Below the pieces are notes generated by a model that was not told the DNA's origin, ran no database searches, and worked only from the letters and a program-made list of their open reading frames with translations. 64,000 nt of DNA from Acidobacteriota bacterium (GTDB taxonomy: Bacteria; Acidobacteriota; Vicinamibacteria; Vicinamibacterales; UBA2999). The stretch covers positions 186,001 through 250,000 of the forward strand of contig CANKJK010000002.1 of NCBI GenBank assembly GCA_947482665.1, given 5' to 3'. Shown here piece after piece: positions 15,193-31,785 of the stretch (the stretch's first letter is position 1; every line of letters starts with the position of its first letter). The translations under genes were made by a program, and so were the position numbers.

Positions 15193-15311
15193 GAGTCCTC
15201 CTTCCCGCTGACGCGGGACCGACACTACCGGTGTCTGGCTGGGCGGATTCTAGCTGCAGGAGACCGGCCTGCTCCACCACGAACTCGAAATGGGAACGAC
15301 CACCCACGCGT

Positions 15312-15317: not shown

Positions 15318-15322
15318 CGGCT

Positions 15323-15679: not shown

Positions 15680-15684
15680 CCGCC

Positions 15685-16974
15685 CTAGAGCTCGTCGTAC
15701 TGGCCCGAGGGCAGCAACCGGACGCAGACGAGACTGATGATCGAACACACCATCAGATAGATCGCGATGGGCGTCGAGGATCCGAAGGTCTGGAAGAGAA
15801 ACAGCGCCACGATCGGGGCAGGCCCACCGGCCGTGATCGAGGAAAGCTGGTACCCAAGGGAAGACCCGGTATAGCGGACCCGGCTCGGAAAGCTCTCCGC
15901 AATAAGCGCCGCCTGGGGTCCGTACTGCATGTCGTGGACCGGCATGGAGAGGAAGATCGCCAGAAACACCAGCGAGGCCACCTTCGTGTTCAGCAGGCCG
16001 AACCAGATGAACGGGAACACGAGCATCACGACGCATCCGATGGCCGTCAGGCGGCGGCGGCCGATCCGGTCCGAGAGCCACCCGAAGAACGGCACCGTGA
16101 ACATCGAGAAGACAGCAGCGCCGCTGACGTAGCCGAGGATCGTGCCTCGGGCCAGGCCGAGGGCTGACGTGCCGTACTGCAGGATGTAGTTCGTGAAGAT
16201 GAAGAACGCCGTCTGCTGACTCGTCCGCAGGAACATCACCAGCAAGACCGGCCGCCAGTGCCCGCGTACGGCCTCCGGCACGGGCGACGTGGCCAACTGG
16301 CCTTCCTGTCGCATCTTCTGGAACGCCGGGGTCTCCTTCACGCCGGTGCGGATATACAGCCCGATCGCAATCAGGATCAGACTGGCGAGGAACGGAATCC
16401 TCCAGGCAAAGTCGAGAAAGCCCTGCTCAGTCGAGTAGGCAGACGCCAGCGCCAACGCGCCGTTGGCCAGCACCAGGCCCACCGGTGCGCCAATATGCGG
16501 CCAGCTCGTGACGAAGCCCCGATGCCGTTTCTCGCTCCATTCGGCCGCAAGCAGCACCGAGCCGCCCCATTCCCCGCCGACACCAATCCCCTGAAGCAGA
16601 CGGCCAACGGTGAGCAGCACGGCGCCCCAGATACCGATCCGGTCGTAGCCGGGCACGAGCCCGATACCAGCCGTCGCGATCCCCATCAGCATCAAGGTGG
16701 CGATGAGCGACACCTTTCGGCCCAGGCGGTCACCAAAGTGCCCGAAGATCGCGGCCCCAAGAGGGCGCGACACGAAGCCGACGAAATAGGTGGAATACGA
16801 GAGCAGCGTGCCGACAAACGGGTCGGCGGACGGAAAGAACTTATGCGGAAAGATGAGTGCCGCCGCAGAGCCGTAGAGATAGAAGTCGTACCACTCAATT
16901 GAGGTACCGACGGCCGAGGCGACGATCGCCCGGCGCATTTGACTGCGCCGGGCGGTAGGGTCCAGGGTCTCCAC
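15685..16974 (-). CDS. MFS transporter, metabolite:H+ symporter (MHS) type
   Basis: A 429-residue, 12-helix transporter. The first helix region V-G-T-S-I-E-W-Y-D-F-Y-L-Y-G is the MHS signature (ProP, KgtP, ShiA relatives), and G-D-R-L-G-R-K and D-R-I-G-R-R are the two cytoplasmic MFS loop motifs. Relatives import organic acids, betaines or shikimate with protons. It is the last gene of the long minus-strand catabolic cluster, 9 bases after a VOC gene, so it probably imports an acid product made by the exported enzymes upstream. GTG at 16974 is used; ATG at 16938 is an alternative. Confidence 0.9.
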   Translation of the reverse strand: METLDPTARRSQMRRAIVASAVGTSIEWYDFYLYGSAAALIFPHKFFPSADPFVGTLLSYSTYFVGFVSRPLGAAIFGHFGDRLGRKVSLIATLMLMGIATAGIGLVPGYDRIGIWGAVLLTVGRLLQGIGVGGEWGGSVLLAAEWSEKRHRGFVTSWPHIGAPVGLVLANGALALASAYSTEQGFLDFAWRIPFLASLILIAIGLYIRTGVKETPAFQKMRQEGQLATSPVPEAVRGHWRPVLLVMFLRTSQQTAFFIFTNYILQYGTSALGLARGTILGYVSGAAVFSMFTVPFFGWLSDRIGRRRLTAIGCVVMLVFPFIWFGLLNTKVASLVFLAIFLSMPVHDMQYGPQAALIAESFPSRVRYTGSSLGYQLSSITAGGPAPIVALFLFQTFGSSTPIAIYLMVCSIISLVCVRLLPSGQYDEL

Positions 16975-16983
16975 CGGGCCTGA

Positions 16984-17556
16984 CTACTTCCGATCCTTGG
17001 CGCTCGAGGCCGGATTGGCGTTGGCCGGCATCTGTAGCGGTGTCACTTCGAAGGTGATGGGCAGACCCGCGCCGTGCATGTCCACGTAGCTCGCCCACGA
17101 GGCAAACGCCTGCGTCTGCTTCCCGCCCTTCGACTCCAGATACTCACGAGCCTTGGTCACGTCCGCCACGTTGAAGCCGATGTGGTGAACGCCGTCGCCG
17201 CCATTCTTGATGTAGTCCTTCCACGGGCTCTCGCCATCCAGCGGCTGGAGGAATTCGAAACTGACGCCATTGATCATGAGCGACGTCAGCCTCCCGTGCA
17301 TGACCTTCCCGGGAAAGCGCGGCCCCCACGGAATGTCACGGAAATCCTTCGCGGGTGCCACCGGCACACCGAAGACCGCCCCAAACGCCTTCGCCGTCTT
17401 CTCGGCATCGGCCACCGCGAAGGAAATGTGCGAGAGCTTCCCTTCCACTGGCGTCGGTGCCTGCTTGGCCTGTCCCTTCACGACCTGCACGGCGACCGTG
17501 GCGCCCACCACGCAGCCGACCAGCGCGCCTGCCACAACCTTGAGATATCCCTTCAT
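16984..17556 (-). CDS. Exported or membrane-anchored VOC-family protein
   Basis: A 190-residue protein starting at ATG 17556 with GGAGGACGC upstream. The N-terminus (about 4-25, V-V-A-G-A-L-V-G-C-V-V-G-A) is a signal or anchor segment. The VOC domain follows: L-S-H-I-S-F-A-V near residue 48 and V-H-H-I-G-F-N-V-A-D near 125 supply the likely metal-binding His residues, and I-T-F-E-V-T near 170 the Glu. This is a two-module glyoxalase-like arrangement. The reaction is unknown. It lies 60 bases downstream of a cytochrome-DUF1080 gene and just before the MFS gene. Confidence 0.8.
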   Translation of the reverse strand: MKGYLKVVAGALVGCVVGATVAVQVVKGQAKQAPTPVEGKLSHISFAVADAEKTAKAFGAVFGVPVAPAKDFRDIPWGPRFPGKVMHGRLTSLMINGVSFEFLQPLDGESPWKDYIKNGGDGVHHIGFNVADVTKAREYLESKGGKQTQAFASWASYVDMHGAGLPITFEVTPLQMPANANPASSAKDRK

Positions 17557-17616
17557 GCGTCCTCCAGCGCCCGACCCAAGGCCGGGCGGCACATCGATGC
17601 TGTACCCGGCGCCGTT

Positions 17617-19017
17617 CTACTCGACATGGATGCGGATGTTCCGCCACTCTGTCGGCGACCCTTCGACCTGCATGCCGAAGAAACCCGCCGGATAGTCGTT
17701 GTGCTCCGTGATGGTCGACATGAGGGCTCCGTTGACGTAGGACTTCACGACGCCGTCCTTCGAGACGATCTCGATGTCGTTCCAGTCCCACACCTTCACG
17801 GCCTTTGTTTTCGCCGCGTTGTCATAGGTGAACTTCCCCTGCTTGCCGCCGATGAAGAAGATGTCGCCCATGTCACGCACGCGCCCTTCGACCTCGATGC
17901 TCTTGCCGAAGCCCGCCATGTTCGTGTCCTGGATGAACAGCAACCAGCCGCCGCCACCCATGTAGATGTCGTCATCGCCCACCCAGCCCTCGGGCTTGAT
18001 GAACTTGTGCTGGAAGCGCACGGTGAAGTTGGTCAGCTTCTTTGGGTAGTACCAGTAGCCGTGCAGGTCGCACTTGCAGTACATCTTCCCGCCCGGCAGC
18101 ACCGTCAGCGTGTCCCCGGGCTCCGTGCGGGCACACCCACCCGGTTCGGGGCCACAGCGCGTGCCGAGCACGAACTTCAGGTTGGAGAAGTCCTTCCCGT
18201 TGAAAATGTGTTCAAACCCCTGCTCGTTGAGCATCATCTGGCCCATCAGCTCGAGGTCGGGCTTGAGCTCCGTGTTTCCGGCCGGGAAGCCGTTGCGCTC
18301 AAGGATGTGCGCGATGATGTCCGCGCGCGTGTTGTTGCTGATCGACTCGTTGCCGAACGCCGGCATGCTCTGCATCTTCGTGTAGAGGTGGTACACGGTC
18401 GGATACAGCATCTTGCCGTAGTAGATGCGGCCGAGGAACGGCGCGGCAAAGGAACTCGGCAGCGGAGCCTCATCCACCTGCTTCTGCGTGAGCTTGGCAT
18501 CGTTGGTGGTATGGCAGAGACCGCAGTTCCGGTTGAAGGCCTGACGCCCGCGTTCCGCCTGCGCCTCAGTGAAGAACGCCTCACCCCGCTTCGGATCGCC
18601 GCCCTTCAGCGACAAATCTCCCGCGAACTCCTTCGCCCCAGCCGACACCTTGCTGTACTGCAGCATGTACGCGACGACATCGGCGTTGGCCTGCCGGGTC
18701 AGCGTGTTCGGGTTGTGGTACGGCATCCGCGCCTGCACGTATCCGAACAGCTCCCGGAGCGGCCGGCTCTGCCACTTGGCCACGAAGGCGGGCCCACCGG
18801 CCGCGGGCGCGAGATTGCCACCGGCCAGGTCCTTGCCGTGACAGAACACGCAGTGCTGCTGATACACCTTGGCCCCACGCGCCGCCTGGGCGTCCGTATA
18901 GACGCCGTCCCACTCAGCCTTGGCCGACTGCTGCGCCGACACCGGAGTCAACGCCAGCGCACTCACGCACGCAAGAAGGGCGGCTACAACCGCCACACGC
19001 AACGACACTGCCTTCAT
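17617..19017 (-). CDS. Exported dihaem cytochrome c-DUF1080 (3-keto-disaccharide hydrolase-like) fusion
   Basis: A 466-residue protein starting at ATG 19017, with AGGAGG upstream. The signal peptide ends near residue 29 (V-S-A-Q). Two cytochrome c modules follow: C56-V-F-C-H60 and C165-G-L-C-H169, with Met ligands likely in R-M-P-Y and S-M-P-A-F-G. From about residue 255 there is a DUF1080 domain (F-E-H-I-F-N-G-K-D-F, later W-N-D-I-E-I-V and the C-terminal G-S-P-T-E-W-R-N-I-R-I), which in characterised members hydrolyses 3-keto-glycosides. The fusion suggests hydrolysis of an oxidised glycoside next to electron transfer in the periplasm. It shares W-D-G-V-Y-T-D-A-Q-A-A-R-G with the small cytochrome at 42164-42601. 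Confidence 0.88.
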   Translation of the reverse strand: MKAVSLRVAVVAALLACVSALALTPVSAQQSAKAEWDGVYTDAQAARGAKVYQQHCVFCHGKDLAGGNLAPAAGGPAFVAKWQSRPLRELFGYVQARMPYHNPNTLTRQANADVVAYMLQYSKVSAGAKEFAGDLSLKGGDPKRGEAFFTEAQAERGRQAFNRNCGLCHTTNDAKLTQKQVDEAPLPSSFAAPFLGRIYYGKMLYPTVYHLYTKMQSMPAFGNESISNNTRADIIAHILERNGFPAGNTELKPDLELMGQMMLNEQGFEHIFNGKDFSNLKFVLGTRCGPEPGGCARTEPGDTLTVLPGGKMYCKCDLHGYWYYPKKLTNFTVRFQHKFIKPEGWVGDDDIYMGGGGWLLFIQDTNMAGFGKSIEVEGRVRDMGDIFFIGGKQGKFTYDNAAKTKAVKVWDWNDIEIVSKDGVVKSYVNGALMSTITEHNDYPAGFFGMQVEGSPTEWRNIRIHVE

Positions 19018-19041
19018 CTCTGCTCCTCCTGAACCCACGAG

Positions 19042-19890
19042 CTAATTCCCGCCGCCGAGAATCACGCGCCATCCCTGCTTGATCCGCTCGTCAATGGCCG
19101 CCTGACCACCGTCTACCTGCATGCCGCAGATCACGTTCTTGGCCTTGCACGCCACCAGGATCTTCTGAAAACCCTTCTCGGTGTCTTCGGGGTGCTTGGG
19201 CGCCCAGCGGCCGTTGCCGAGCGACATGCTGAAGTCGTTCGGCCCGATGAAGATCGCGCCGATGCCAGGGACGTCCAGGATCTCGTTGATGTTGGCGAGC
19301 CCTTCGGCCGACTCGATCATGATCATGTTGAAGAGTTCGCCGTTGGGGTTCAGCGGCCACACGTCGGCGTAGTTGTCGATGTAGTCATCGATGTCGAGCC
19401 CCCAGCGACGGGCCGCTTTCGACGGGGTCACATGGCGGAGGCCCGGGGGGTTCGGGTACTTCGCGCCCTTCTGGGGCTTGAAGCGATGCGTGCGCACGGC
19501 CAGTTCGGCCTGGGCCTTGGTTTCCACGCGCGGAAACACCACGCCCATCGCGCCGATCTCCAGAATCTGCTTCACGGCCCACTTGAAGCTTTCGTCTCCG
19601 TCCATGGGAATGCGGACGAGCGGCGCCATCTTGAGATCCACCTTGCCGTCCGGACGCCGGTTCTTCATCAGATCGTTGATGGTCTGATCGAGCTTCGTGA
19701 TGTCGAGCGGGTTGTGCTCAAGGTCGATGAACTGCCAGTCGCGCCCGCTGATCGCCGCGCCACCGTTGGCCAGCGCCGTGATCATCGGGTTCAACCGCTG
19801 GCGGGGCTGCGCTACGAGAACACGCCCCCAGCCGCCGATGCCTGTCACGCACACGATGCCGAGCACGGCAGTCAGACACAGTCGCTTCAT
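19042..19890 (-). CDS. HpcH/HpaI-family aldolase with signal peptide
   Basis: A 282-residue protein starting at ATG 19890. Catalytic features of the class II HpcH/HpaI/citrate-lyase family are visible: F-I-D-L-E-H-N-P (catalytic His), L-V-R-I-P-M (substrate Arg), M-I-M-I-E-S-A-E-G (metal Glu) and F-I-G-P-N-D-F-S-M-S (metal Asp). These enzymes cleave hydroxy-oxo acids to pyruvate or glyoxylate plus an aldehyde. It begins with a clear hydrophobic export signal (L-T-A-V-L-G-I-V-C-V-T-G-I-G-G, ending near V-A-Q), although characterised family members are cytoplasmic. A GAGGAGAG ribosome site lies upstream. It sits between two cytochrome-DUF1080 genes in one operon. Confidence 0.85.
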   Translation of the reverse strand: MKRLCLTAVLGIVCVTGIGGWGRVLVAQPRQRLNPMITALANGGAAISGRDWQFIDLEHNPLDITKLDQTINDLMKNRRPDGKVDLKMAPLVRIPMDGDESFKWAVKQILEIGAMGVVFPRVETKAQAELAVRTHRFKPQKGAKYPNPPGLRHVTPSKAARRWGLDIDDYIDNYADVWPLNPNGELFNMIMIESAEGLANINEILDVPGIGAIFIGPNDFSMSLGNGRWAPKHPEDTEKGFQKILVACKAKNVICGMQVDGGQAAIDERIKQGWRVILGGGN

Positions 19891-19988
19891 CGAGACTCTC
19901 TCCTCTGGATCCGGCCGCAGGGACGCGTCCGGCACGGCGCCCACACCGTACACGACAACACCGGGCGGCGCCAGCAGTTTCACCCAAG

Positions 19989-21098
19989 CTAGGGCTTGTC
20001 GTGATCCCGGATGCGGATGTTCCGCCAGCGCGCCGCGAACCCCTGCATCTGCAGGCCGATATAGCCCGGCTGGGTGTATTCGTGCTGCGTCACCGTGGAG
20101 ATCAGCGTGTCGTTGAGATACGCCTTGACGTTGCCGTCGCTCGACACGATCTCGATGGTGTTCCACTCGCCGAGCGGACGCTGCACTTTAAGCCTGGCGT
20201 CGTTGTCCCAGGTATTCGCGCGCATCTTCGTGCCGCCCAACGCAATGGGCTTCAGCAAGTCGCGCTGCTCGCCAGCCAGCGTCATCGACTTCGGCCAGAC
20301 GAACAGGTTTTCGTCGAGCAGGAAGAGGTGGTAGCCCGTGTTGGCGTAGTAGTACACGTCATCGGCATCCCAGTCGGCCGGCTTCTCGGATAGATAGTCC
20401 AGCCGCAGGGTGAAGTTCCGATACTTCCCTGCCGTATACATGAACCCGTGTTCCTTGCCGGACCCATAGATCACGCCGTTCTTGACGGTAAAGGCGAGGC
20501 CCGGTGTCGTGCGGCCGCATCCCTCGGGCGGGGGCGCGCAGCTCAGCCCCACGAGGAACTTCCAGCCATCGAGATTCCGGCCGTTGAAGAGCCGCTCGAA
20601 GCCGGGCTCATCCAGCGGCAGGAGCTTCATGGCGGCCGGGTCAGGGAGCAGGTCGGTGCGACCGGCAGGGAACCCGTTCTGCTTCAGGAGATACGCGAGG
20701 ATGTCCGTGCGGACAGGCGCTGTGATGCTCGTCGTCACAGCCGGCATCGACTCCAGCTCGCGGTAGAGGAAGTAGACCGACGTAAAAATGCGTCGGCCGC
20801 TGCTTCTCTTATCCGCGATGTAGCGGCCACCCAGATTGCTCGGCGTCTTCACTTTCGCGATGAGAAATCCGGCCGGGTCCGCCTTGAACTTCTCCGCGTC
20901 CGGCTCCGCGGCATGGCACGCGGCGCAGTGCTTCTCGAAGAGCTTCTTGCCGCGAGCCGCCTGCGCCTCCGAGTAGTACGCCTCGGGCTCGGGCCCACTC
21001 GGCGTCTGCGCGGACAGCGCGAGTGCGCCACCCAGGAGCGAACCCAGCACCATGCCGACCGTCATAACCCGGCTCTGCACCCTTCGTGTCCAGACCAT
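19989..21098 (-). CDS. Exported monohaem cytochrome c-DUF1080 fusion
   Basis: A 369-residue protein with a signal peptide (about 11-30, ending L-S-A-Q). One cytochrome c module has C58-A-A-C-H62 with a probable Met in S-M-P-A-V. A DUF1080 domain starts near residue 170 (F-E-R-L-F-N-G-R-N-L-D-G-W-K-F) and ends with F-A-A-R-W-R-N-I-R-I-R. It is a paralogue of the dihaem fusion at 17617-19017 but lacks one haem module. Start ATG 21098 forms TGATG with the stop of the upstream VOC gene; a GTG at 21101 is possible. It probably hydrolyses a keto-sugar linkage in the periplasm and handles electrons. Confidence 0.87.
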   Translation of the reverse strand: MVWTRRVQSRVMTVGMVLGSLLGGALALSAQTPSGPEPEAYYSEAQAARGKKLFEKHCAACHAAEPDAEKFKADPAGFLIAKVKTPSNLGGRYIADKRSSGRRIFTSVYFLYRELESMPAVTTSITAPVRTDILAYLLKQNGFPAGRTDLLPDPAAMKLLPLDEPGFERLFNGRNLDGWKFLVGLSCAPPPEGCGRTTPGLAFTVKNGVIYGSGKEHGFMYTAGKYRNFTLRLDYLSEKPADWDADDVYYYANTGYHLFLLDENLFVWPKSMTLAGEQRDLLKPIALGGTKMRANTWDNDARLKVQRPLGEWNTIEIVSSDGNVKAYLNDTLISTVTQHEYTQPGYIGLQMQGFAARWRNIRIRDHDKP

Positions 21099-22096
21099 CA
21101 CGGCACCTCGATCAGTTCGATAACCTCACGGCTCGGCCCTTCAATCAGCGCCGCACGGCCCTGGCCGAAGCGATAGGGACGCTTCAGGACGCGGACCCCA
21201 CTGCGCCGAAGTCGAGTCAGCCAGGCGTTGAGGCCATGCACCTGCAGACCCACGTGATCCATGACCTGTCCCCGCGAACTGACGAGCGGGGCGCTCCCCT
21301 GCCGCTGGTACCAGTTCATCTCGACGTCGCCGAACGCCACACCACCGGCCGGCTGGCGCTTGGTGCCCTCGGGCACCAGCGACAACCACGAGGGCTCTCC
21401 GTCCGGTACCGCGCAGTCTTGGTCGGAGGTCTTCCGGGCCGGCGCGTTCTTCGCGCTGGCGCTCACGGGCGCATGCAGGTGCTTCGCGTACCAGAGTTCC
21501 GCACAGAACACCTGGTTCTGGAACATATGCACATGGTTGAAGCGCTCGGCCGGATGGTCGCCGGCGTATTCGATCCACTCTCCGTCAGGCCCCGTCAGGT
21601 ACCCGTAGCCGAAGCTCCCGGACGGCGCGGCGCTGCGGGCCCGCGCGGCCTCGGCCGCAGCCTTGGTGAGCGTGCCAGGCAGCCACTCGCCGCTGAAGGT
21701 GACGGTGCCGCCCTGGTCGGTATGGAGCGGTGTCATCGGCGCGCCGGAGGCGCGGTAGCGCTCCCAGTACCCCTTGGCGGACGGCACATGCCAGCCGAAG
21801 TGCCAGTAGGCACTCTGAGGCGCCTTGGCGGCCTTGGGGCCCCGCGAAAACAGCAGCAGGACATGGCCCGTACGGACACCGGCGAAGCCGCCGACCGTCT
21901 CGGGAACAGCCGTCGAGAAGTGCTGCTGATAAAAGCGAACCGACCGGTCGGGGTCCGGGGTGTTCAGGTGGAGGTGGTGGAAGACCGGTACTTCGGTCTC
22001 CGAGGGGTCAGGCGCGCCGGCACGCATGCCGACGTCCGCCGCGGCCCAGGCAGCCAGGGCCAGGGTCGCGACGGCGAGAAAGGGGCGACTACGCAC
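21098..22096 (-). CDS. Exported VOC-family protein with two modules
   Basis: A 332-residue protein, probably starting at GTG 22096, where a signal peptide begins (R-P-F-L-A-V-A-T-L-A-L-A-A-W-A-A-A). The frame stays open further upstream but overlaps the preceding gene. F-H-H-L-H-L-N-T-P-D near residue 32 and M-D-H-V-G-L-Q-V near 285 supply VOC-type metal His residues, and R-E-V-I-E-L-I-E at the C-terminus the Glu. The central region, with repeated His (Y-W-H-F-G-W-H, R-F-N-H-V-H-M), is longer than in simple VOC enzymes. The reaction is unknown. It is coupled to the downstream cytochrome-DUF1080 gene. Confidence 0.75.
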   Translation of the reverse strand: MRSRPFLAVATLALAAWAAADVGMRAGAPDPSETEVPVFHHLHLNTPDPDRSVRFYQQHFSTAVPETVGGFAGVRTGHVLLLFSRGPKAAKAPQSAYWHFGWHVPSAKGYWERYRASGAPMTPLHTDQGGTVTFSGEWLPGTLTKAAAEAARARSAAPSGSFGYGYLTGPDGEWIEYAGDHPAERFNHVHMFQNQVFCAELWYAKHLHAPVSASAKNAPARKTSDQDCAVPDGEPSWLSLVPEGTKRQPAGGVAFGDVEMNWYQRQGSAPLVSSRGQVMDHVGLQVHGLNAWLTRLRRSGVRVLKRPYRFGQGRAALIEGPSREVIELIEVP

Positions 22097-22118
22097 GCCG
22101 GGGAGTCTACCGCGATCG

Positions 22119-23624
22119 CTACTGAAGCTGGCCAGGCCGCTTCGGCGCCGGTGGCTCCGACAGGTCGATGGCCTGACCGCGGGCCTTGGCGAGTGCGATG
22201 AGGCGCTCAGCGCTTTCCGGCGAGGCATGGAACAGGAACCCGTCCAGACCCGCCGCGTGGTGATACGGCCGCAAGCCCCGCTGGCTCACTGTGTCGAGCG
22301 GAACACCCTGTGCCGCGAGCCAGTCCACCAGTACCGGGGCGCCACGATTCGCCGCACCGTGCATCGCCGTTGAGCCTTCCCACTGCGGGTCTGGCTTCGA
22401 CCCGCCGCCAATCACCGCCTTCGGGTCCTGACCGAGTTCGGCGAGGTACTTCACCGACTCCAGCGCCTCGGCATTGGTGCCGGGGCACTCGCCCTCCCAG
22501 AAGCCAATCCCTGACGCCGCGAGCAACGGGGTAATCCCGGCCAGCGAGGGGATGTTCGTGTCGGCGCCCTTGGCCTTGAGGAACTTCATCAGCGGCACGT
22601 TCACGGTGGTGGCCGCGATGAAGAACGGAGTCGCACCGGCAAAACTCATCCGGTAGCCGCCCAGCGCAATCTTCCTCGGCGCGCCATACCCGTTGTAGCG
22701 GGCATTGATGTCGGCACCGCGCGTCAGGAGCTCGGTCATCAGCGCATACGTCTCAACCCCGGTCTGCGGGATCTGGCGCGGGAGCACCGTGGAGAGCGCA
22801 CGGTTGTCGGCGCGGTGCATGAAGGCCAGGATGTGCAGCGGCTTCCCGTTCGGGTCATCGCCATTCGGATCGGCGCCGCGCTCAAGCAGGACCTTCGCCA
22901 GCTCGTAGTGCGCGTTGATCATGGCCAGGGCCAGCATGTTCGTGCCATCGGCCGTCTTGCTCTTGACGTCGAGTCCGCTGTCGAGCAGGACTCGCGTCGA
23001 CTCAATGTCGTTCGCGCGAATCGCGAAGATGAGCGGTGTGATCTTGGTCTTGGACTGCGCCTTCGTATTGGCACCCGCCTCGACCAGCACCTTCACTACG
23101 GCCGGGTGCCCCTCGGCCGCGGCCCACATGAGGGCGGTCTGCTGACGCAGCGGCTCGGCCTGGTCAACCTTGGCGCCCTTCGCAATCAGCGCCTTCACCA
23201 CAGCCGCGTGCCCTGCACGGGCCGCCAGCATCAGCGCCGTATCGCCACTCTCTGTGCGAACGGCGTTCACATCCGCCCCGCCGGCCAGCAAGGCCTCCAC
23301 AACCGGGAGGCTACCGGCCTCGGCCCCGGCGCGCAGCGCCGTCACACCGTACCGATTGGCCACATTCGGCTTGGCGCCACGCTTCAGCAGCAGCGAGACG
23401 ATCTCGGCATCCCCACGACGGGCCGCCCACTGGAGCGCGGTCGTGCCGTCGAGCCCGGCCACGTTGACGTCCTTCGCCTCCGCGATGGCCGCCTTGACGG
23501 CCGCCCGGTCGCCGTCCCGCGCGATGTCCACCAGGTTCGCGGCAGACGCGACCCCAGTCATACCTGGGCACACCATCAAGCCCAGCACCATCACGACGGC
23601 CCACTTCATCTGCATGACTCGCAT
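22119..23624 (-). CDS. Exported ankyrin-repeat protein
   Basis: A 501-residue protein with a signal peptide (A-V-V-M-V-L-G-L-M-V, ending V-A-S-A-A). At least eight ankyrin repeats follow, recognised by D-G-T-T-A-L-Q-W-A-A, G-V-T-A-L-R-A-G-A-E, S-G-D-T-A-L-M-L-A-A-R-A-G-H and L-L-x-x-G-A-D-x-N segments. Long inserts appear in the later repeats. The end, L-D-G-F-L-F-H-A-S-P, resembles secreted acidobacterial ankyrin proteins. It probably serves as a periplasmic binding scaffold. It follows a strong hairpin after the TonB receptor gene, and its start ATG (23624) has no clear Shine-Dalgarno; M-Q-M-K-W a few codons on is an alternative. A paralogue is at 44456-46129. Confidence 0.87.
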   Translation of the reverse strand: MRVMQMKWAVVMVLGLMVCPGMTGVASAANLVDIARDGDRAAVKAAIAEAKDVNVAGLDGTTALQWAARRGDAEIVSLLLKRGAKPNVANRYGVTALRAGAEAGSLPVVEALLAGGADVNAVRTESGDTALMLAARAGHAAVVKALIAKGAKVDQAEPLRQQTALMWAAAEGHPAVVKVLVEAGANTKAQSKTKITPLIFAIRANDIESTRVLLDSGLDVKSKTADGTNMLALAMINAHYELAKVLLERGADPNGDDPNGKPLHILAFMHRADNRALSTVLPRQIPQTGVETYALMTELLTRGADINARYNGYGAPRKIALGGYRMSFAGATPFFIAATTVNVPLMKFLKAKGADTNIPSLAGITPLLAASGIGFWEGECPGTNAEALESVKYLAELGQDPKAVIGGGSKPDPQWEGSTAMHGAANRGAPVLVDWLAAQGVPLDTVSQRGLRPYHHAAGLDGFLFHASPESAERLIALAKARGQAIDLSEPPAPKRPGQLQ

Positions 23625-23669
23625 ATTCACGCCTGACTTGTTCAACACCGCTTCCCGATGAGCGCAGAC

Positions 23670-23694
23670 GGGCGGACCCTCACCGGGTCCGCCC
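23670..23694 (-). terminator. Hairpin after the TonB receptor gene
   Basis: GGGCGGACCC (23670-23679) and GGGTCCGCCC (23685-23694) form a perfect 10-bp stem with a 5-base loop. It lies just after the TonB receptor stop and before the ankyrin gene. No T-run follows, so it may only attenuate transcription or protect the upstream mRNA end. Confidence 0.6.
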
Positions 23695-23712
23695 ATCCGC
23701 ACAGTACTGCGT

Positions 23713-26700
23713 CTAGAACTCGAACGTGCCGCCCACCTTCAGCACGCGCGGTCCGAGGATGGCCGTCGGCCGCCGCCAGGCCGCGCCGAGCGTGTTGTTG
23801 ACCGCCAGAATCGTGCCCGCGTTGGCCACGTTGTAGATGTCGAAGTCGCCCTTCATCCTGGCCTTGCCGACCTTCACGATCTTCGAGAAACGAAGGTCGA
23901 GCTGGTTCACGCGAGACTCGAAGATCTGGTAGAGCGGCAGAATCGGCACGGTCACAGAGCCGGCGGCGCCAGCCGAGAGATTCCGGCCGAGCGACGGCAG
24001 CACCTGCGCGTTGGTAAAGGTGTTGTTGGCCTGCACACCGGCGCCGGGCAGATTCTGGAACGTGGCGCTCGCCTGGAAGCCCAGCGGCAGCGGATACACC
24101 GTGCTGAACTTGATCTGCGAGCCCGCTTTCCACCACGGCTGTGCGACGTGGCAGAACTCCTTGCGGGCATCCAGCAGCCCGAAGCCCGGGCCGCTGGTGT
24201 TGCCGGGAATCAGCCCTGGTGCATCAACCGTGACGCAGGAGTCGGTCACGTTCTGGCCGAAGGACACGCCACCCTGGAACAGGCCGCCCTTGCCGAAGCG
24301 CGCGCTGACAGCCGCGTCCACACCGTTGAAGTACTGCTTGTACTTGCCGAAGCTGTCGATCTGGGTGACCACGTTGTTCACCTGACCGAACTTCGCCGGG
24401 TTCACGTCCTGCAGCCCGCAGATCTGGTTGCCGCCACCGCCCGGCAGCAGCGAGTTGGTCGGCGCCGTCACGCAGAAGCTGTTGTAATTCTCCGGCGCAA
24501 CCAGCGTGTTGTCCGTCACGGAGATGTTGCCGAACCAGGTGCGGAAGTAGCCGACACTCACGGCCATGCCGGGCCGGAGTTCCTGCTGCACCGAGACCTG
24601 ACTCTGCCAGTTGAAGGGCCGAATCTGGCTGCCGTTGATGACATCCGTGGCAAACGTCCTGGTGGGGACCGACGTGCCGAAGCGGCTGTTGCTCAGCGCG
24701 CCGCACTCGCCGTTGGCCCCGGTGCTCGGGGTCAGGTCGCAATCGGGCACGTAGTTGCCGTTGGCATCGTTCCACGTGCGGGTCGCGGTCAGCACCAGCG
24801 CGAGCTGCGGGTTCACCTGTTCGGTGAGTCCGACGCCCATCGCCTGCACATAGCGGCCAAGGGACGCCTTGACCGCGGTCTTACCATTGCCGAACACGTC
24901 ATACGCCATCCCGAAGCGGGGCGAGATGTCCTTCCACTTGGGCGCATCGCTGACCGCGTCAAAGTGGCGGGCCGGCAGGAAGCGCGACGCCGGGAGATCC
25001 TGCGGCGGCGCGCTCCCGGTGAAGGTATCGAGCCGGATGCCGCCCGTCAGCGTGACCCGCTTGAGCGTCCACTGATCCTGCGCGTAGGCGCCCAGCCCCA
25101 GCATGCGATTGTCGGTCAGCACCGGCATCGCCCACTGCGTCAACGAGATCGGCGCGGTGTTGCGGAACGTGTAGCTCAGGAAGTTGTTGACGGTGCGGTC
25201 CTGGTGGTCCCAGCCACGATAGAAGATGAAGCCGCCCTTGAAGGCCTGCGACCCGGTGACGTAGGACGCGGCCACGCGGCCGTTCATCTGGTTGCCTTCC
25301 TGGCCTCGCGTGGTCACGTTATACGCGGTCGAACCCGTCGTCGAGAAGGCCCCGTAGGTGATGCCCAGACCGGAGTCGGTGATCGCGATGCTCTCGGGCT
25401 TCACGAGCTTGTCGAGCGGCGACTTCTTCGCATTGAACGAATAGGACACACCGGCATCCAGCAGCATCTTGTTGCTGGCCGGGTGGCTCCAGCTGACCTG
25501 GCTCAGCCAGAGCGGGTCGAAGTGGAGCGTCGTGACGGCCTCGGGCGACGCCGCGCTGCTCACGCTGAGGTAGCAGAAGCAGTCGGCCTGATGGCTCTCA
25601 TACCAGGCAATCTTGTGGGATTTCGAAAGCTGCCAGGTCAGGCGGACGCTCTCGTCCTTCATGTAGGTATCGGTAAAGGCCGGGCGGCTCGTGTCAGCCA
25701 CATACAGCAGGGGGTTCGTGGACTTGTTGAAGTACGCGCCGGGCTGATACTCCTTCGTGCCCCACGTACGCGCCGCACCGTAGAACCAGATCTTGTCGCG
25801 GACGATGGGTCCGCCAACGCCGCCGCCCGCGTCATAGATCTTCGCGATCGAGGACGCCGTCGTGAGACCGCGGGACTTGGCCTCGTCGCTGAGGTTCTTG
25901 CCCTGCATCGAGCCATTCGCGAAGTTGCCCGTCGCGTAGTACTTGAAGGAGTTGCCGCCTTCCTTCGGGACGTAGTTGACCTGCACACCACCGGTGTCAG
26001 CTTCCGCAGACATGCCGCTCGTCTCGATCGTGGTTTCCTGCATCATCGCGACGTTCGGGAAGTAGATCTTGTTGACGCCGCCGGCGTCGCCCGAGTTGTT
26101 GCCGAAGCGGAGGCCGTCGATCTTGAACATGCCGTCATTGCCGCGGCCGCCGTGGATGGCGATCGACGACACGCCGTCGCCCTTGTTGCCGCCGACGTCC
26201 TGCGTGGCCTGGTTCGTCGTGGTCGCGCCGAGCGTCAATGACGCAAAGGCGTTGGCCGTCTTGGCCGAGGGGATGGCATCCAGCGTCGCCTGCGAGAGCA
26301 CCGTCTGGCTGCGGACGTTCTGAATGTCCACGACCGGGCTGGCGCCCGTCACCGTGACCGTCTCCTCGAGCGAGCCCACCTTCATGTCCGCATTGATGTT
26401 CGCGGTCACGCCGGTGGTCAACTCCACCCCTTCGCGCTTGAAGGTCCCGAATCCGGGCAATGTGAAGGTCACCGAGTAGGTGCCTGGCCGCAGCTCGAGA
26501 ATCTTGTAGTTGCCGTTGGCGTCCGATGTCGCCGAACGGACCTTCTCGATGAGGGCCGGGCTGGCGGCCTCAACCGTCACGCCGGGCAACACACCGCCCG
26601 TCGCATCCTTCACCACGCCGGCGATCGCGCCGGCACTGGACGACTGCGCCCACGCCGTCGCCTGAGCCATCACCGCACACATGGCGGCAAGGCCGAATCC

Positions 26701-26718
26701 GATCAGTCTGTTACGCAC
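23713..26718 (-). CDS. TonB-dependent receptor, Oar-like with carboxypeptidase-regulatory domain
   Basis: A 1001-residue outer-membrane protein. Start GTG 26718 has AGGAGG seven bases upstream. After a signal peptide (about 1-24, ending A-W-A-Q) comes a carboxypeptidase-regulatory-like domain (about 30-105: I-A-G-V-V-K-D-A-T-G-G-V-L-P-G-V, then N-G-N-Y-K-I-L-E-L-R-P-G-T-Y). A plug domain follows (E-T-V-T-V-T-G-A-S-P-V-V-D, I-H-G-G-R-G-N-D-G-M), then a long beta-barrel ending in G-G-T-F-E-F with terminal Phe. These receptors are common in Acidobacteriota and import oligomeric nutrients. It lies 29 bases downstream of the quinoprotein gene, so substrate uptake and periplasmic oxidation are probably co-expressed. 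Confidence 0.92.
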   Translation of the reverse strand: MRNRLIGFGLAAMCAVMAQATAWAQSSSAGAIAGVVKDATGGVLPGVTVEAASPALIEKVRSATSDANGNYKILELRPGTYSVTFTLPGFGTFKREGVELTTGVTANINADMKVGSLEETVTVTGASPVVDIQNVRSQTVLSQATLDAIPSAKTANAFASLTLGATTTNQATQDVGGNKGDGVSSIAIHGGRGNDGMFKIDGLRFGNNSGDAGGVNKIYFPNVAMMQETTIETSGMSAEADTGGVQVNYVPKEGGNSFKYYATGNFANGSMQGKNLSDEAKSRGLTTASSIAKIYDAGGGVGGPIVRDKIWFYGAARTWGTKEYQPGAYFNKSTNPLLYVADTSRPAFTDTYMKDESVRLTWQLSKSHKIAWYESHQADCFCYLSVSSAASPEAVTTLHFDPLWLSQVSWSHPASNKMLLDAGVSYSFNAKKSPLDKLVKPESIAITDSGLGITYGAFSTTGSTAYNVTTRGQEGNQMNGRVAASYVTGSQAFKGGFIFYRGWDHQDRTVNNFLSYTFRNTAPISLTQWAMPVLTDNRMLGLGAYAQDQWTLKRVTLTGGIRLDTFTGSAPPQDLPASRFLPARHFDAVSDAPKWKDISPRFGMAYDVFGNGKTAVKASLGRYVQAMGVGLTEQVNPQLALVLTATRTWNDANGNYVPDCDLTPSTGANGECGALSNSRFGTSVPTRTFATDVINGSQIRPFNWQSQVSVQQELRPGMAVSVGYFRTWFGNISVTDNTLVAPENYNSFCVTAPTNSLLPGGGGNQICGLQDVNPAKFGQVNNVVTQIDSFGKYKQYFNGVDAAVSARFGKGGLFQGGVSFGQNVTDSCVTVDAPGLIPGNTSGPGFGLLDARKEFCHVAQPWWKAGSQIKFSTVYPLPLGFQASATFQNLPGAGVQANNTFTNAQVLPSLGRNLSAGAAGSVTVPILPLYQIFESRVNQLDLRFSKIVKVGKARMKGDFDIYNVANAGTILAVNNTLGAAWRRPTAILGPRVLKVGGTFEF

Positions 26719-26747
26719 ACACCCTCCTGCTGATTCCCGAACTACGT

Positions 26748-28730
26748 TCAATTGGCCACCGCTCCCTTGAGCGTGTAAGCCACAAGCGCCGAGTCCTCGC
26801 CGTTGCCGGTGGCAACCACGAGGTATTGCTTCCCTTTGTGGAGATAGGTCATGGGCGCAGCCGTCGAGAGACTGTCGCCCTCGAGCACGTGCACAATCGC
26901 GCCGCTCTTCTTGTCGAAGATGTAGACGAGCTTCTTCAGGAACCCCGGGTCGTTCCACTTTTCCCACGGCGGGGGCTGTGGCTGCCCCGTGACGAAGGTA
27001 TAGGTGACCCCGACAAAGAGCAGCGACTTCGTCACCAACGGTGCCGCCCCGAGCACGGAATCACCAAGCGGTGGGAGCTTTAGATCCTTGAGCAAGGGAT
27101 GATTCCGTGGCCCATTGCCAAGAGGCGTCATCCACGCGCGGTCGCCCGTATTGAGGTCAATCGCCGTCACGCGGGAGTACGGCGCCTTGATAATCGGCAG
27201 GCCGTCCACATACATCTTCGCGCCCTGATCTGCGGCGGCCGGCACGGCGCCTGGTGCGGAATCCGTGAACCGCGCCTTCAGGATGTCCATCGTGAGGCGC
27301 GTGGGCACATAGAGCATCCCGGTCTCGGGATCAAAGGCTGACCCGCCCCAATTCGCCCCACCAAGCGAGCCGGGCACCTTGAGCGTGCCCTTCACCGACG
27401 GCGGCGTGTAGAGTGGACCGGCCTCGAAGGCCTGCAGTTGCTCGAGGGCTCTCTTCTTCAACTCAGGGGTGAAGTCGATCAGGTTCTCCGGCACCGCACC
27501 GACCGTGTCCGCCGGCATCGGCTTGCTGGGAATCGGCTGCGTCGGCGACGTCCGCTCGCGGTTGGGCGCGGCCGACTGCGGCACGGGCGTCTCTGGAATC
27601 GGCCAGATCGGCTGACCCGTCTTGCGGTCGAGGACGAAGATCGTGCTGTTCTTGCTGATGCCGACGACCGCCTTCACGCGCTTGCGGTTCACGGTCATCT
27701 CGACCAGATTCGGGTGCATCGTGATGTCGTAATCCCAGAGGTCGTGATGAATCCCCTGGAAATGCCACACGCGCTTGCCGGTCTTTGCCTCGATGCAGAT
27801 CAGGCTGTCGGAGAACAGATTGTTGCCGGGCCGCAGGGCGCCGTAGTAGTCGCTGCCTGGCGCCGACGTCGCGATGTAGGCATAGTCCAGCTCGGGGTCG
27901 TACACCATCCCGGCCCATGCGTTGGCATTGCCCGTCCGTTCGGCCGACCCTTCGAGCCACGTGTCGTAGCCCACCTCACCCGGCAGCGGAATGGTGTGGA
28001 AGGTCCAGATCTCCTTGCCCGTCCGGACGTCGAACGCCTTGACGTACCCGGGAGGGGACAAATCTTCCTTGCCTGCCGTCGCATCCTGAATCGCGTTGCC
28101 GACGATCAGCACATCCCCCGCGACGAGGGGCCGGCGCCCGGTGAAGTTGCGGGCGCGGACGGCGTGGTGGAAGCCAAGCGCGAGGTCCACCTTGCCGGCG
28201 GTGCCAAAGGCCGGGTCCGGCTTCCCGGTCTTCGCGTCGATCGAAATCAGATACGCGTCAGGCGTGGCCGTGAGAATCCGCTCGGCCTTCCCGTCAGTCC
28301 AATAGGACAAACCGCGGACGACGAAACCCACGCTGTGCGGCTTGCCAGCCTTGTAGCTCTCGGGGTCGTAGACCCACTTCTGCTCACCAGACCCGGCATC
28401 GAGCGCGGCCACCATCCCGAGCGGCGTGCCGGTATAGAGAACGCCGTTCACCATCAGGGGCGTGTCTTCGTAGCGTGAGGCGCGGTTGAGGACGTTCGAC
28501 TTCTGCACGTCCCGGTCCGCCGACGCCCAGCGCCAGGCCACCTGAAGATCCTTGACGTTGTCCTTGTTGATCTGACCGAGGGGCGAGTACTTCATGCCGC
28601 CGGCATCGCCGGCGTACTCGATCCACTGCGAGGATGGTTGACGCTTCGGCCCCTGTGCCAGCACCAATGAGCCGACGGCGGCGGTCAGACCGGTCGCGAC
28701 CAGCACCGCAGCCCACTTCGTGTTTGCCAA
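26748..28730 (-). CDS. PQQ-dependent dehydrogenase (quinoprotein), exported, without haem domain
   Basis: A 660-residue protein with TTG start preceded by AGGGGGAG. A signal peptide (about 6-25, ending V-L-A-Q) precedes W-I-E-Y-A-G-D-A-G-G-M-K-Y-S-P-L-x-Q-I, the N-terminal signature of PQQ alcohol/glucose dehydrogenases. F-Q-G-I-H-H-D-L-W-D-Y-D at about residue 310 and A-W-A-G-M-V-Y-D-P-E fit the quinoprotein catalytic face. No C-x-x-C-H is present, so electrons must leave through a separate cytochrome, such as those encoded downstream. It probably oxidises an alcohol or sugar in the periplasm. It is the first gene of the 28730-to-15685 cluster. Confidence 0.9.
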   Translation of the reverse strand: MANTKWAAVLVATGLTAAVGSLVLAQGPKRQPSSQWIEYAGDAGGMKYSPLGQINKDNVKDLQVAWRWASADRDVQKSNVLNRASRYEDTPLMVNGVLYTGTPLGMVAALDAGSGEQKWVYDPESYKAGKPHSVGFVVRGLSYWTDGKAERILTATPDAYLISIDAKTGKPDPAFGTAGKVDLALGFHHAVRARNFTGRRPLVAGDVLIVGNAIQDATAGKEDLSPPGYVKAFDVRTGKEIWTFHTIPLPGEVGYDTWLEGSAERTGNANAWAGMVYDPELDYAYIATSAPGSDYYGALRPGNNLFSDSLICIEAKTGKRVWHFQGIHHDLWDYDITMHPNLVEMTVNRKRVKAVVGISKNSTIFVLDRKTGQPIWPIPETPVPQSAAPNRERTSPTQPIPSKPMPADTVGAVPENLIDFTPELKKRALEQLQAFEAGPLYTPPSVKGTLKVPGSLGGANWGGSAFDPETGMLYVPTRLTMDILKARFTDSAPGAVPAAADQGAKMYVDGLPIIKAPYSRVTAIDLNTGDRAWMTPLGNGPRNHPLLKDLKLPPLGDSVLGAAPLVTKSLLFVGVTYTFVTGQPQPPPWEKWNDPGFLKKLVYIFDKKSGAIVHVLEGDSLSTAAPMTYLHKGKQYLVVATGNGEDSALVAYTLKGAVAN

Positions 28731-28786
28731 GACTCCCCCTTACGGAATCCGCCGCCAGGAGGGCAGGCGGGCCAAGCAGGGCTGTG

Positions 28787-28816
28787 ATTCTATGGTGTCG
28801 CTCCGAGGACCCTCAA
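28787..28816 (-). promoter_or_regulatory. Promoter of the quinoprotein/TonB receptor operon
   Basis: On the minus strand, TTGAGG (plus 28811-28816) is followed after 18 bases by TAGAAT (plus 28787-28792), about 57 bases before the TTG start. It lies back to back with the kinase promoter. Confidence 0.5.
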
Positions 28817-28841
28817 TCACCTGAACAGGGTACCTATGCCA

Positions 28842-28870
28842 TTGCGCCCTCTCAGATGAGCCGGTACGAT
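28842..28870 (+). promoter_or_regulatory. Promoter of the propeller histidine kinase
   Basis: TTGCGC (28842-28847), a 17-base spacer and TACGAT (28865-28870). The ATG at 28891 is 20 bases further on. The divergent layout would let one bound regulator affect both units. Confidence 0.45.
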
Positions 28871-28890: not shown

Positions 28891-31785
28891 ATGAAGAGTT
28901 CAGCCTGCGGCCTCATGGCCGCCCTCCTGCTCGCGCTGTCCGGCCTCACGGTGCACGCCGCCCCGCCCGCGGGGGAGTACGCGCACGCGGCCTGGACCGA
29001 CTTCGGAGACCCCCTCCAGCCGGCCGGGGTCTACGCGATTGCCCAGGACCACCAGGGGTATCTGTGGCTTGGGCTCCTGAATGGCCTGGTCAGGTTTGAT
29101 GGCACCCAGTTCGTTCGCTGGGAGGCCCTTGGCCGGCCCACACTCCCCGAGCGTTCCGTCACCGCACTCACGGCGGACCGGGGCGGAGCCCTCTGGATTG
29201 GCTACGGGAATCTCGGCGGCATCAGCCGTTTCCAAGATGGCGCGATCCAGCACTTCACGGCACAGGACGGCGTACCCGCCGGCGCGATCCGCACGCTCGT
29301 CGTCAGCCCCGATGGAGAAGTCTGGGCAGCCGGCTATGGCGGCATCGCCCGGTTCTCCGGAGGTCGCTGGGAAGCCGTCCGCAACGACCACGACGAGCCG
29401 ATCGGCCCGGTGCAGTTCGTCCACCAGGACGACGAGGGCACGGTATGGATTGCCACGCCCGAGCAGCGCTACCGGCGACGCCCGGGTGGCCACAGCATCG
29501 AGACCCTGCCGGCGGACACCCCGTCCGCGGCCTTCTTCGGCCCCCGGATCGCCGCGGTGCTCTCACGGGCCGGCCAGGCGCTGACGCTCGCCTCCTCCAA
29601 TCCGACCATGCCGCCCCATGCGCTGATGGATGGACATGGCCGACTCTGGGCCGCCACCGAAAGTGCGCTGAGGATCGTCGACCCCGGCCAGCCTCAGCAC
29701 GACGCCGTCACCACGCTGACCACGCGCGATGGCCTGTCCAGCAGCCGTGTGAACACGCTGTTCCGCGATGCGGCAGGCCAGATCTGGATCGGCACACCCG
29801 CCGGCCTTGATCTCTTCCGTCTGCGGGGACGAGACCAGCTGCAACTGGTGCCAGGTATCCGGGAGCCCAGCCTGGCGGTATTGGCCGACCACGGGGACCT
29901 GTGGGTGGGTACGACGGCGGGCCTGGTCCGCGTGACGAGCGGCCACGCGAGTCGTGTGACGACGAACGAGGCGATGCCGGGAGACCGTGTGAGCGCGCTC
30001 CACCGCGATGCCGCCGGCCGACTCTGGATTGCCACTGACCAGGGCATACGATGGCTGCGCGGACGCGCGCTCGTGCCTGTGCCGGGCCAGGCGGGTCACC
30101 TGACGAATGTGTCCTCGATAGCCACCGATCCCGATGGCGGCGTCTGGTTGTGCCAATTTGGGGCTCTGCACCGCTTCCTGGGAGACGCCGCCGTTGATCT
30201 GGAGGCGATCCCGGCCCTGGCCGGCCAACGCGCGGGCGTCGTGTTCGCTGACCGCCAGGGGACGGTCTGGATCGGACTCTGGAACGGCTCGGTGGTGCGC
30301 TATCGCCACGGCCAGTTCAGGACCTTCACGACGGCGGACGGGTTGCCGGCCGGCCGGATCATCTCGCTCTCGGAAGATGCGAGCGGAGCCCTCTGGATCG
30401 GCTCCCTTGGCGGGCTCAGCCGAATGACAGGTGATCGCATCGACACGCCGGGACGCGCCAGCGGCCTCTCCGGCTTGATGGTCGTCTCGATTCAGCGCGA
30501 CGGCGCGAACGGCCTCTGGCTCGGTACGCTCTCGGGCCTGATCCGCCTCACGCTCGACGAGTTTGAGGCCGCCGTGCGATCGCCGCAGTACCGCCCGCGC
30601 CTCCGGATCTTCGATCCGCCACCTGATGTCTCGTTTGCGGCCATCGGCCAACCTATGGCCGCGGCCACACCTGACGGCACGCTGTGGCTGGCGTCCACGC
30701 AGGGCGTGGTGTCTCTGGACACGCGCCAGGTCACTGAGGTCGAGGCACCACGCGTCTTCACCAATGGCATCGCGGTGGATGACCATGCCAGGAACACGGA
30801 CTCGGCCGTACGGGTTCCGGCAGGTTCCTCCCGTGTCAGAGTCGACTTCTCCGCGGTGGCCTTCGGCATCCATCCCCGGGTGGCCTTCCGCTACCGGTTG
30901 GACGGCTTTGACTCGCAGTGGGTCGACGCCGGCACCACGAGACAAGCGGTCTACACCAGCCTGCCGCCAGGGGAATATCGCTTCCGCGTTGCGGCCAGCC
31001 ATGACGGGAGCGCGTGGAGCGAAGCCCTCCTGCCGGTGCCCATCCAGATCATGCCCGCGTTCTACCGGACAGCGTGGTTCTACCGAAGCTGCTTCGGTGC
31101 CCTCGCCCTGCTGATCTACGCCGCATGGCGGGCACGCCTCCGCCGCCTGCAGGGTGAGTACTCGGCCGTGCTGGCGGAACGCGCCAGGCTCGGCCGAGAA
31201 ATCCACGACACGCTGCTGCAAGGCATGGTCGGCGTCGCGCTGCAGATTCACAGCATCCTTGAACGCGCGAACCTCCCGGGTGAACTGGAGTCCCGCCTGG
31301 CCAGGGCCCGCGACACGCTCGAGCACTACATTCGCGAAACCCGCAACTCGATCTGGGATCTGCGGTCGCCGACGCTGGAACGGCTCTCGCTCGTCGATGC
31401 CGTGCGCATGGCCGGCGACACGCTGACGGCAGGCAGCGACACGACGTTCGAGCTGCGCGTGTCCGGCACGCCGGCCCGAGGCGCGCCACAAGTCGAAGCG
31501 CACCTGCTGCGCATCGCGCACGAGGCCATTTCAAACGCCGTTCGCCACGGCCACGCCACGCGTGTCAGCGCGGAAGTGGCCTATCACGACGATGGCGTCC
31601 GTGTGGCCGTGTCCGACAATGGCCAGGGCTTCGACGCCACGTCGCTGGCCGCCCGATCCGCTCACCAGTGGGGTCTGGCGACCATGCGCGAACGCGCCCA
31701 GCAGATCGGCGCGGAGTTCCGGTGCGAGAGCGGCCCTACCGGCACGATCGTGCAAGCCGAAGCCCCCCTGCCTCTGGCCAGTTGA
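28891..31785 (+). CDS. Two-component sensor histidine kinase with periplasmic propeller (HisKA_3 type)
   Basis: A 964-residue sensor. The signal segment (about 7-25) is followed by many two-component-regulator propeller repeats of the form G-x-L-W-I-G-T (examples: G-A-L-W-I-G-Y-G, G-Q-I-W-I-G-T, G-T-V-W-I-G-L). A Y_Y_Y domain follows (about 650-720: F-R-Y-R-L-D-G-F-D-S-Q-W and L-P-P-G-E-Y-R-F-R-V), then one transmembrane helix near 730-750. The phosphoacceptor helix is G-R-E-I-H-D-T-L-L-Q-G with H772. The ATPase domain has H-E-A-I-S-N-A-V-R-H-G near 875-885 and D-N-G-Q-G-F. It should sense a sugar-like or other ligand outside the membrane and phosphorylate the regulator encoded next. Divergence from the quinoprotein cluster makes that its likely target. 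Confidence 0.9.
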   Translation: MKSSACGLMAALLLALSGLTVHAAPPAGEYAHAAWTDFGDPLQPAGVYAIAQDHQGYLWLGLLNGLVRFDGTQFVRWEALGRPTLPERSVTALTADRGGALWIGYGNLGGISRFQDGAIQHFTAQDGVPAGAIRTLVVSPDGEVWAAGYGGIARFSGGRWEAVRNDHDEPIGPVQFVHQDDEGTVWIATPEQRYRRRPGGHSIETLPADTPSAAFFGPRIAAVLSRAGQALTLASSNPTMPPHALMDGHGRLWAATESALRIVDPGQPQHDAVTTLTTRDGLSSSRVNTLFRDAAGQIWIGTPAGLDLFRLRGRDQLQLVPGIREPSLAVLADHGDLWVGTTAGLVRVTSGHASRVTTNEAMPGDRVSALHRDAAGRLWIATDQGIRWLRGRALVPVPGQAGHLTNVSSIATDPDGGVWLCQFGALHRFLGDAAVDLEAIPALAGQRAGVVFADRQGTVWIGLWNGSVVRYRHGQFRTFTTADGLPAGRIISLSEDASGALWIGSLGGLSRMTGDRIDTPGRASGLSGLMVVSIQRDGANGLWLGTLSGLIRLTLDEFEAAVRSPQYRPRLRIFDPPPDVSFAAIGQPMAAATPDGTLWLASTQGVVSLDTRQVTEVEAPRVFTNGIAVDDHARNTDSAVRVPAGSSRVRVDFSAVAFGIHPRVAFRYRLDGFDSQWVDAGTTRQAVYTSLPPGEYRFRVAASHDGSAWSEALLPVPIQIMPAFYRTAWFYRSCFGALALLIYAAWRARLRRLQGEYSAVLAERARLGREIHDTLLQGMVGVALQIHSILERANLPGELESRLARARDTLEHYIRETRNSIWDLRSPTLERLSLVDAVRMAGDTLTAGSDTTFELRVSGTPARGAPQVEAHLLRIAHEAISNAVRHGHATRVSAEVAYHDDGVRVAVSDNGQGFDATSLAARSAHQWGLATMRERAQQIGAEFRCESGPTGTIVQAEAPLPLAS

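Follow-up and report, generated by a model that had tools for sequence, protein, structure and literature searches.

A set of nine adjacent minus-strand genes at positions 15685-28730 of a 64,000-nucleotide stretch from a member of the Vicinamibacterales (Acidobacteriota) is tentatively read as a single operon for extracytoplasmic oxidation with scavenged pyrroloquinoline quinone (PQQ), in which c-type haems would accept the electrons and DUF1080-fold domains would bind rather than cleave a substrate; this reading is given a probability of about 0.42. The stretch, hereafter the window, is positions 186001-250000 of contig 2 (CANKJK010000002.1) in a 3.53 Mb assembly (GCA_947482665.1; 97.46% complete), hereafter the host genome. 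In order of transcription, the nine open reading frames (ORFs), with families assigned by Pfam profiles, encode a PQQ-type quinoprotein dehydrogenase, an Oar-like protein, an ankyrin-repeat protein, a two-module VOC protein (VOC2), a one-haem cytochrome c-DUF1080 fusion (1h), an HpcH/HpaI aldolase, a two-haem fusion (2h), a one-module VOC protein (VOC1) and an MFS symporter.

In the proposed scheme, the quinoprotein, charged with environmental PQQ, would oxidise a hydroxyl group on a small substrate, either sugar-like or a cyclitol/aromatic alcohol, and electrons would reach the respiratory chain through the c-type haems of both fusions. The C-terminal DUF1080-fold domains may keep the substrate or a glycan source near the haems, in the manner of a CBM66-like carbohydrate-binding module (CBM). 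The secreted aldolase, the VOC proteins and a 2Fe-2S/molybdopterin hydroxylase encoded downstream would turn the carbonyl product into an acid, which the MFS symporter could import. This account is supported by the gene families, by the export-like N-termini of eight of the nine products and by recurrence of the operon backbone in a second metagenome-assembled genome (MAG), ND5_Bin_3_1 (JAKFYA, deposited as Acidobacteria; G120), hereafter ND5. It is also supported by a DUF1080 fold that is kept with a changed signature, by the PQQ-site residues kept in the quinoprotein, by cytochromes of this kind beside other quinoproteins and by the failure to detect PqqC and PqqE in the host genome.

Both fusions match PF06439 (3keto-disac_hyd) over the cut-off. 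The one-haem protein (19989..21101, minus strand) has a CxxCH motif at residue 59 and an E-value of 7.3e-26, and the two-haem protein (17617..19017, minus strand) has two CxxCH motifs, a PF13442 match and a PF06439 match with an E-value of 3.1e-14. An AlphaFold model of the DUF1080 domain alone reached a mean predicted local distance difference test score (pLDDT) of 85 with 55 alignment rows, of which 48 are canonical and bias the model toward the canonical fold; a model of the whole 1h protein with seven rows (mean pLDDT 53) was discarded. The domain model is closest to 3hbk (Z 20.5, root-mean-square deviation (rmsd) 2.3, 174 aligned), with similar values for 9fbe (Z 19.9, rmsd 2.4, 172 aligned) and 8v31 (Z 18.5, rmsd 2.5, 172 aligned). 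The fusions, as modelled, thus keep the fold of the BT2157-type 3-keto-glycoside eliminase/hydratases (8rr2 and 9fbe, with the related 8tda and 8v31; Z 18-20). The lectin-like fold of CBM66 modules is shared as well (4azz; Z 16.3, rmsd 2.8, 157 aligned), although the family of the fusions is PF06439 and their carbohydrate binding is putative. A sugar-binding fold beside a haem also occurs in the CBM-cytochrome redox proteins of polysaccharide degraders, to which the fusions may be likened.

The sequence signature of the fusions differs from that of the family. Among 91 canonical domains, taken from 59 proteins so that some proteins count twice, the signature residues are R (72), Q (71), D (65) and H (76). 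Ten fusions were compared: the R is replaced by F in nine and by P in one, the D by G in all ten and the H by Q or E in all ten, and the canonical Q place holds E, T, Q or L, depending on the fusion. Scaffold residues are retained, and the cysteine pair C176/C183 does not vary among the fusions. These ten were drawn from 12 fusions, leaving out one ORF at locus L108, excluded beforehand, and a mis-trimmed copy (C1), which had the same F, G and Q in an earlier alignment. Unlike the BT2157-type enzymes, then, the fusions have changed R, D and H positions, a gained cysteine pair and N-terminal haems. Because most of the family-typical residues are lost, the DUF1080 domains of the fusions probably do not cleave keto-sugars in the known way. 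An overlap of the DUF1080 and CBM66 models, noted for Thermogutta in the accessible part of one study (PMC5673643), fits a binding role. The Pfam label "3-keto-disaccharide hydrolase" for PF06439 can therefore mislead, since this subfamily retains the fold, gains haems and alters the signature. A literature search, for the most part confined to papers readable without subscription, returned none on cytochrome-DUF1080 fusions or on this operon.

The quinoprotein (26748..28730, minus strand; 660 amino acids; beta-propeller domain PF01011, E 6.7e-168) has a signal-peptide-like N-terminus and is without a haem motif. It is 30% identical to Gcd of E. coli, a representative of the membrane-bound PQQ glucose/quinate dehydrogenases, and shares with it D354, W404, D466, K493, R266 and E217. 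Unlike Gcd, it is without the N-terminal membrane part and without H262; D354, W404, D466 and K493 are counted as PQQ-site residues. The best NCBIfam model is TIGR03074 (glucose/quinate/shikimate), at 355.8 bits, below the curated cut-off of 832.65.

The supply of PQQ bears on any role for this protein. No PqqC match was detected in the host genome at its 97.46% completeness, and across the order PqqC was matched in four of 60 genomes, three of them with strong matches. The same three are those with PqqE over the cut-off among 12 genomes tested; neither the host genome nor ND5, the latter outside the PqqC search, has PqqE over the cut-off. Full-length PqqU-like proteins are present in five of 12 genomes searched (G036, G093, G041, G050 and G058), and only partial matches are found in the host genome and ND5. 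With PqqC, PqqE and full-length PqqU undetected in the host, its quinoprotein would either run on scavenged PQQ, which may enter by means other than PqqU, or not work as annotated. The absence of detectable PQQ biosynthesis also counts against a simple form of the route in the earlier note. PQQ scavenging without synthesis is reported for Vicinamibacteria in the portion of the PqqU paper available (PMC12124388); the quinoproteins without PQQ synthesis described there are alike, but the PqqU-like matches here are partial. Across the order, 80 of 120 genomes have quinoprotein matches (E<=1e-100), as against the four of 60 with PqqC; quinoproteins are far more frequent than PQQ makers. If they function at all, PQQ import would be necessary in most hosts.

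The suggestion that the fusion haems accept electrons from the quinoprotein is mainly comparative, because such cytochromes recur beside quinoproteins. Three builds are found: DUF1080-fused (the window, ND5 and the host locus L086, where the fusion lies 96 nt from a quinoprotein), alone (L100 in genome G050, 6 nt from a quinoprotein) and ankyrin-fused (L101 and L102, quinoprotein loci in G050 and G112). In the ankyrin-fused forms (L101:3616-5517 and L102:14175-16103), which are secreted, the cytochrome c domain lies at the C-terminus of the ankyrin-repeat protein. Another host fusion (L091) lies near a further PF01011 protein, and at L087, also in the host, a quinoprotein is flanked by VOC2 and an Oar-like protein. 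Three 1h-type fusions adjoin a stand-alone cytochrome (L089, L092 and L093), and 2h has both haems in one chain. Together, the fusions and the quinoprotein may offer a compact system for studying electron transfer from a PQQ enzyme to a sugar-binding redox protein. Near quinoproteins or cytochromes at L086, L089, L099, L101 and L102, a large protein with two CxxCH motifs, a protein starting MIVTK..PRRT.LRG.GA..ALP and an ankyrin protein also recur; the families DUF1592/DUF1552 are presumably represented among them.

Gene order in ND5 supports the view that the cluster is more than chance. The order of quinoprotein, Oar-like, ankyrin, VOC2, aldolase, 2h, MFS, 2Fe-2S and molybdopterin-binding (MoCo) genes is kept there over three contigs, whose ends overlap by 237 nt (97.5% identical) and 126 nt (100%). 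Identities between the window and ND5 are 62-90% by global comparison, and the ratios of non-synonymous to synonymous substitution rates (dN/dS) are 0.06-0.30 for ten genes, 1h included. A reading of the genes as pseudogenes or artefacts was rejected in view of this purifying selection.

Several observations count against a single operon with one route. The changed R, D and H positions of the fusions are only putatively catalytic, and the ND5 gene order is inferred across contig ends, one overlap being 97.5% rather than 100%. The ND5 copy of 1h (74-75% identity) sits on another contig and not at the operon, a DUF4440 gene occupies the place of VOC1, and an SDR gene and an NHL-protein gene take the places of the BamB-like and lactamase-like genes of the window; given such swaps, the parts of the cluster need not constitute one route. 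Finally, the fusion cannot be a general quinoprotein partner, since two of the 120 genomes match it (seven copies in the host, one in G036), compared with 80 for the quinoprotein.

The earlier note had proposed that a glycoside is oxidised outside the cell to a keto-glycoside, cleaved by DUF1080 enzymes and imported as an acid. In its full form, the quinoprotein would make a 3-keto-glycoside, the DUF1080 domain would cleave it by elimination or hydration, the acid would be imported and the haems would take the electrons. The conserved extracytoplasmic oxidation cluster, the haem-linked DUF1080 domains and the organic-acid-type MFS transporter agree with this; the keto-glycoside cleavage at its centre is not supported. 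The DUF1080 fold is indeed nearest to the eliminase/hydratases 9fbe, 8rr2, 8v31 and 8tda and other DUF1080 structures, and the PF06439 matches are over the cut-off. Genetics in Caulobacter crescentus, as given in the accessible part of the report (PMC9007349), also ties periplasmic DUF1080 proteins to 3'-ketolactose, in a system (LacABC with the periplasmic DUF1080 protein CCNA_01705) that resembles the operon in pairing extracytoplasmic oxidation with a secreted DUF1080 protein encoded near a dehydrogenase gene. However, that system, so far as the same source describes it, combines a LacABC dehydrogenase with a plain DUF1080 protein, whereas the operon combines a quinoprotein with a haem-fused DUF1080 domain of changed signature. 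Of the hydrolase pocket, whose lack the note gave as refuting its reading, the fold is present but the conserved R/D/H signature is changed, which weakens the cleavage route. In the alignment as printed, AL2 (8v31, titled 3-keto-2-hydroxy-glucal hydratase) shows the stretches E-Y-Q-V-L-D and D-H-G and so retains Q, D and H, whereas the fusions have lost the D and H throughout; the R is absent from AL2 too, and so would be dispensable for hydratase activity. The nine operon proteins and the four encoded downstream gave no match to a C3 dehydrogenase of the LacABC or GFO/IDH type, the types that are known to supply DUF1080 enzymes. A lactose-type route was rejected for want of a LacABC-type gene, and keto-glycoside cleavage as a whole is considered quite unlikely. 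A reading that accepts the loss of the signature would make the fusions a novel class of sugar protein wired to haems, with the signature rebuilt (R to F/P, D to G, H to Q/E and a new cysteine pair), which present a glycoside or attack it oxidatively while the haems take electrons from the scavenged-PQQ enzyme; this, too, is judged unlikely.

Other explanations make the DUF1080 domains incidental or dispense with a shared substrate. In a periplasmic quinate/shikimate-like or aromatic-alcohol route, the quinoprotein would convert an alcohol to a ketone or aldehyde, the MoCo enzyme would convert the aldehyde to an acid, and a shikimate-type MFS transporter would import it. TIGR03074 as the best quinoprotein model, the 356 bits of the MFS protein against the shikimate-transporter model and the conserved MoCo/2Fe-2S genes downstream speak for it, but both scores lie under curated cut-offs (832.65 and 538), and no dehydroquinate/dehydroshikimate dehydratase family was found among the operon and downstream proteins searched, so that it has a low probability. 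It is rather unlikely that there is no single pathway at all, and that the locus is a lineage-specific, often shuffled cassette of secreted redox genes from large paralogous families, with shared regulation and no shared substrate. The gene swaps between the window and ND5 would fit such a cassette, as would the host paralogues (six aldolase, seven fusion and five quinoprotein matches) in differing gene combinations among the surroundings read, which cover all but one of the five quinoprotein matches; the constant backbone order and the purifying selection seen in every one of the ten genes compared speak for the operon instead. Least probable is that the Oar-like protein imports PQQ for the adjoining quinoprotein and so forms, in addition to PqqU, another type of PQQ receptor. 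The PQQ gene survey and the scavenging reported for Vicinamibacteria (see above) would accord with this, and Oar-like genes also adjoin quinoproteins at L087, L101 and L102. However, the protein has no similarity to PqqU, genome G050 combines a full PqqU-like protein with an Oar-quinoprotein pairing, and the MAGs are incomplete. Oar-like receptors are, moreover, very common in this bacterial group.

The remaining proteins of the favoured oxidation operon, all encoded on the minus strand, are less distinctive. The Oar-like protein (23713..26718) is an outer-membrane, probably TonB-dependent protein with a clear CarboxypepD_reg match (E 1.5e-17) and a C-terminal end ...GTFEF; its Plug match is under the cut-off (16.5 vs 23.9 bits) and no barrel is matched in the window protein, so the TonB receptor of the earlier note is weaker than stated. 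A relative at L093 matches the PF25183 barrel, and a PDB sequence search returned no relative. Four to five Oar-like receptor genes lie within one ND5 contig stretch (L210). The ankyrin-repeat protein (22119..23624, in an ORF of 22119-23702; Ank_2, E 1.6e-51) is secreted, as is VOC2 (21098..22096, start inferred; PF00903, E 4.8e-13), for which a PDB sequence search gave nothing beyond a chance antibody match and which is matched in 36 of the 120 genomes. The aldolase (19042..19890, 282 amino acids; PF03328, E 7.8e-26) is probably secreted, to judge from its N-terminus, an unusual location for the HpcH/HpaI family; in alignment with 4mf4 it has the H, R, E and D that are taken to form the HpaI-type site. 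Matches to this aldolase occur in 49 of the 120 genomes, six of them in the host genome. VOC1 (16984..17556; PF13669, E 4.6e-13) is secreted and methylmalonyl-CoA-epimerase-like, with relatives in the PDB, and the MFS metabolite:H+ symporter (15685..16974; Sugar_tr/MFS) scores 418.6 bits against TIGR00883, for which the cut-off is 443.45.

The nine genes and their named families stand as the earlier note described them, with an ankyrin-repeat gene that it left unnamed. Its short gaps are borne out (9-98 nt), and its several overlaps are due to over-long ORFs. With likely start sites chosen by the analyst, in place of mechanical ORF starts that are too long and inflate overlaps, the gaps in gene order are 29, 88, 22, -4 or 32, 98, 24, 60 and 9 nt; the alternative values depend on whether 1h starts at a GTGA overlapping the VOC2 stop, the one possible 4-nt overlap, or at an ATG at 21065. 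The aldolase start is 19890, not 20166, which gives a signal-peptide-like N-terminus. Such N-termini, identified by eye, are found in eight of nine products, the MFS protein being the exception.

Downstream, the cluster probably extends to 10004, since genes for the 2Fe-2S subunit (12322..12837, minus strand; Fer2_2, E 1.9e-24) and the MoCo subunit (10004..12310, minus strand; MoCoBD_2, E 3e-36; twin-arginine-like leader) of a molybdopterin hydroxylase also follow the MFS gene in ND5, where the MoCo counterpart is 76% identical. Between these and the MFS gene, after a spacer of 459 nt, lie two minus-strand genes of uncertain membership, encoding a second, BamB-like beta-propeller protein (13864..15225; PQQ_2, E 2.1e-31) and a metallo-beta-lactamase-fold protein with a weak match (12926..13864; PF00753, E 1e-4).

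Divergent from the quinoprotein gene, on the plus strand, are genes for a Reg_prop/Y_Y_Y histidine kinase (28891..31785; Reg_prop, HisKA_3 and HATPase_c) and a LuxR-type response regulator (31787..32419; Response_reg and GerE), the latter with a 62% relative in ND5 that is likewise divergent from the quinoprotein gene. A relative of a CMD protein is also found ahead of the quinoprotein in ND5. A promoter-like site on the minus strand ahead of the quinoprotein gene (28787..28816) is the single one in 9500-29200, where 1.6 are expected by chance; the promoter and terminator scans are at chance level, and its placement alone makes it suggestive. An Rfam search of the window gave no matches.

A pattern-based contig scan, in which rarer fusions may be missed, covered 187 stretches and gave 79 relatives, with the fusion (39-75% identity) in three MAGs at four loci. 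The rest are DUF1080 or cytochrome matches of <37% identity, save one 32-residue match of 56%. None of the other DUF1080 proteins among the ORFs read out from these relatives has a haem motif; ORFs in the fetched loci were called by a simple rule based on GC content at third codon positions (GC3), by which genes can be missed. One fusion of acidobacterial type lies in a MAG deposited as Acidimicrobiia (L107; VFZH01000178.1), a name that looks wrong, and by its matching gene positions this locus looks identical to one in G036 (G036:C178), a genome placed in the family of the window.

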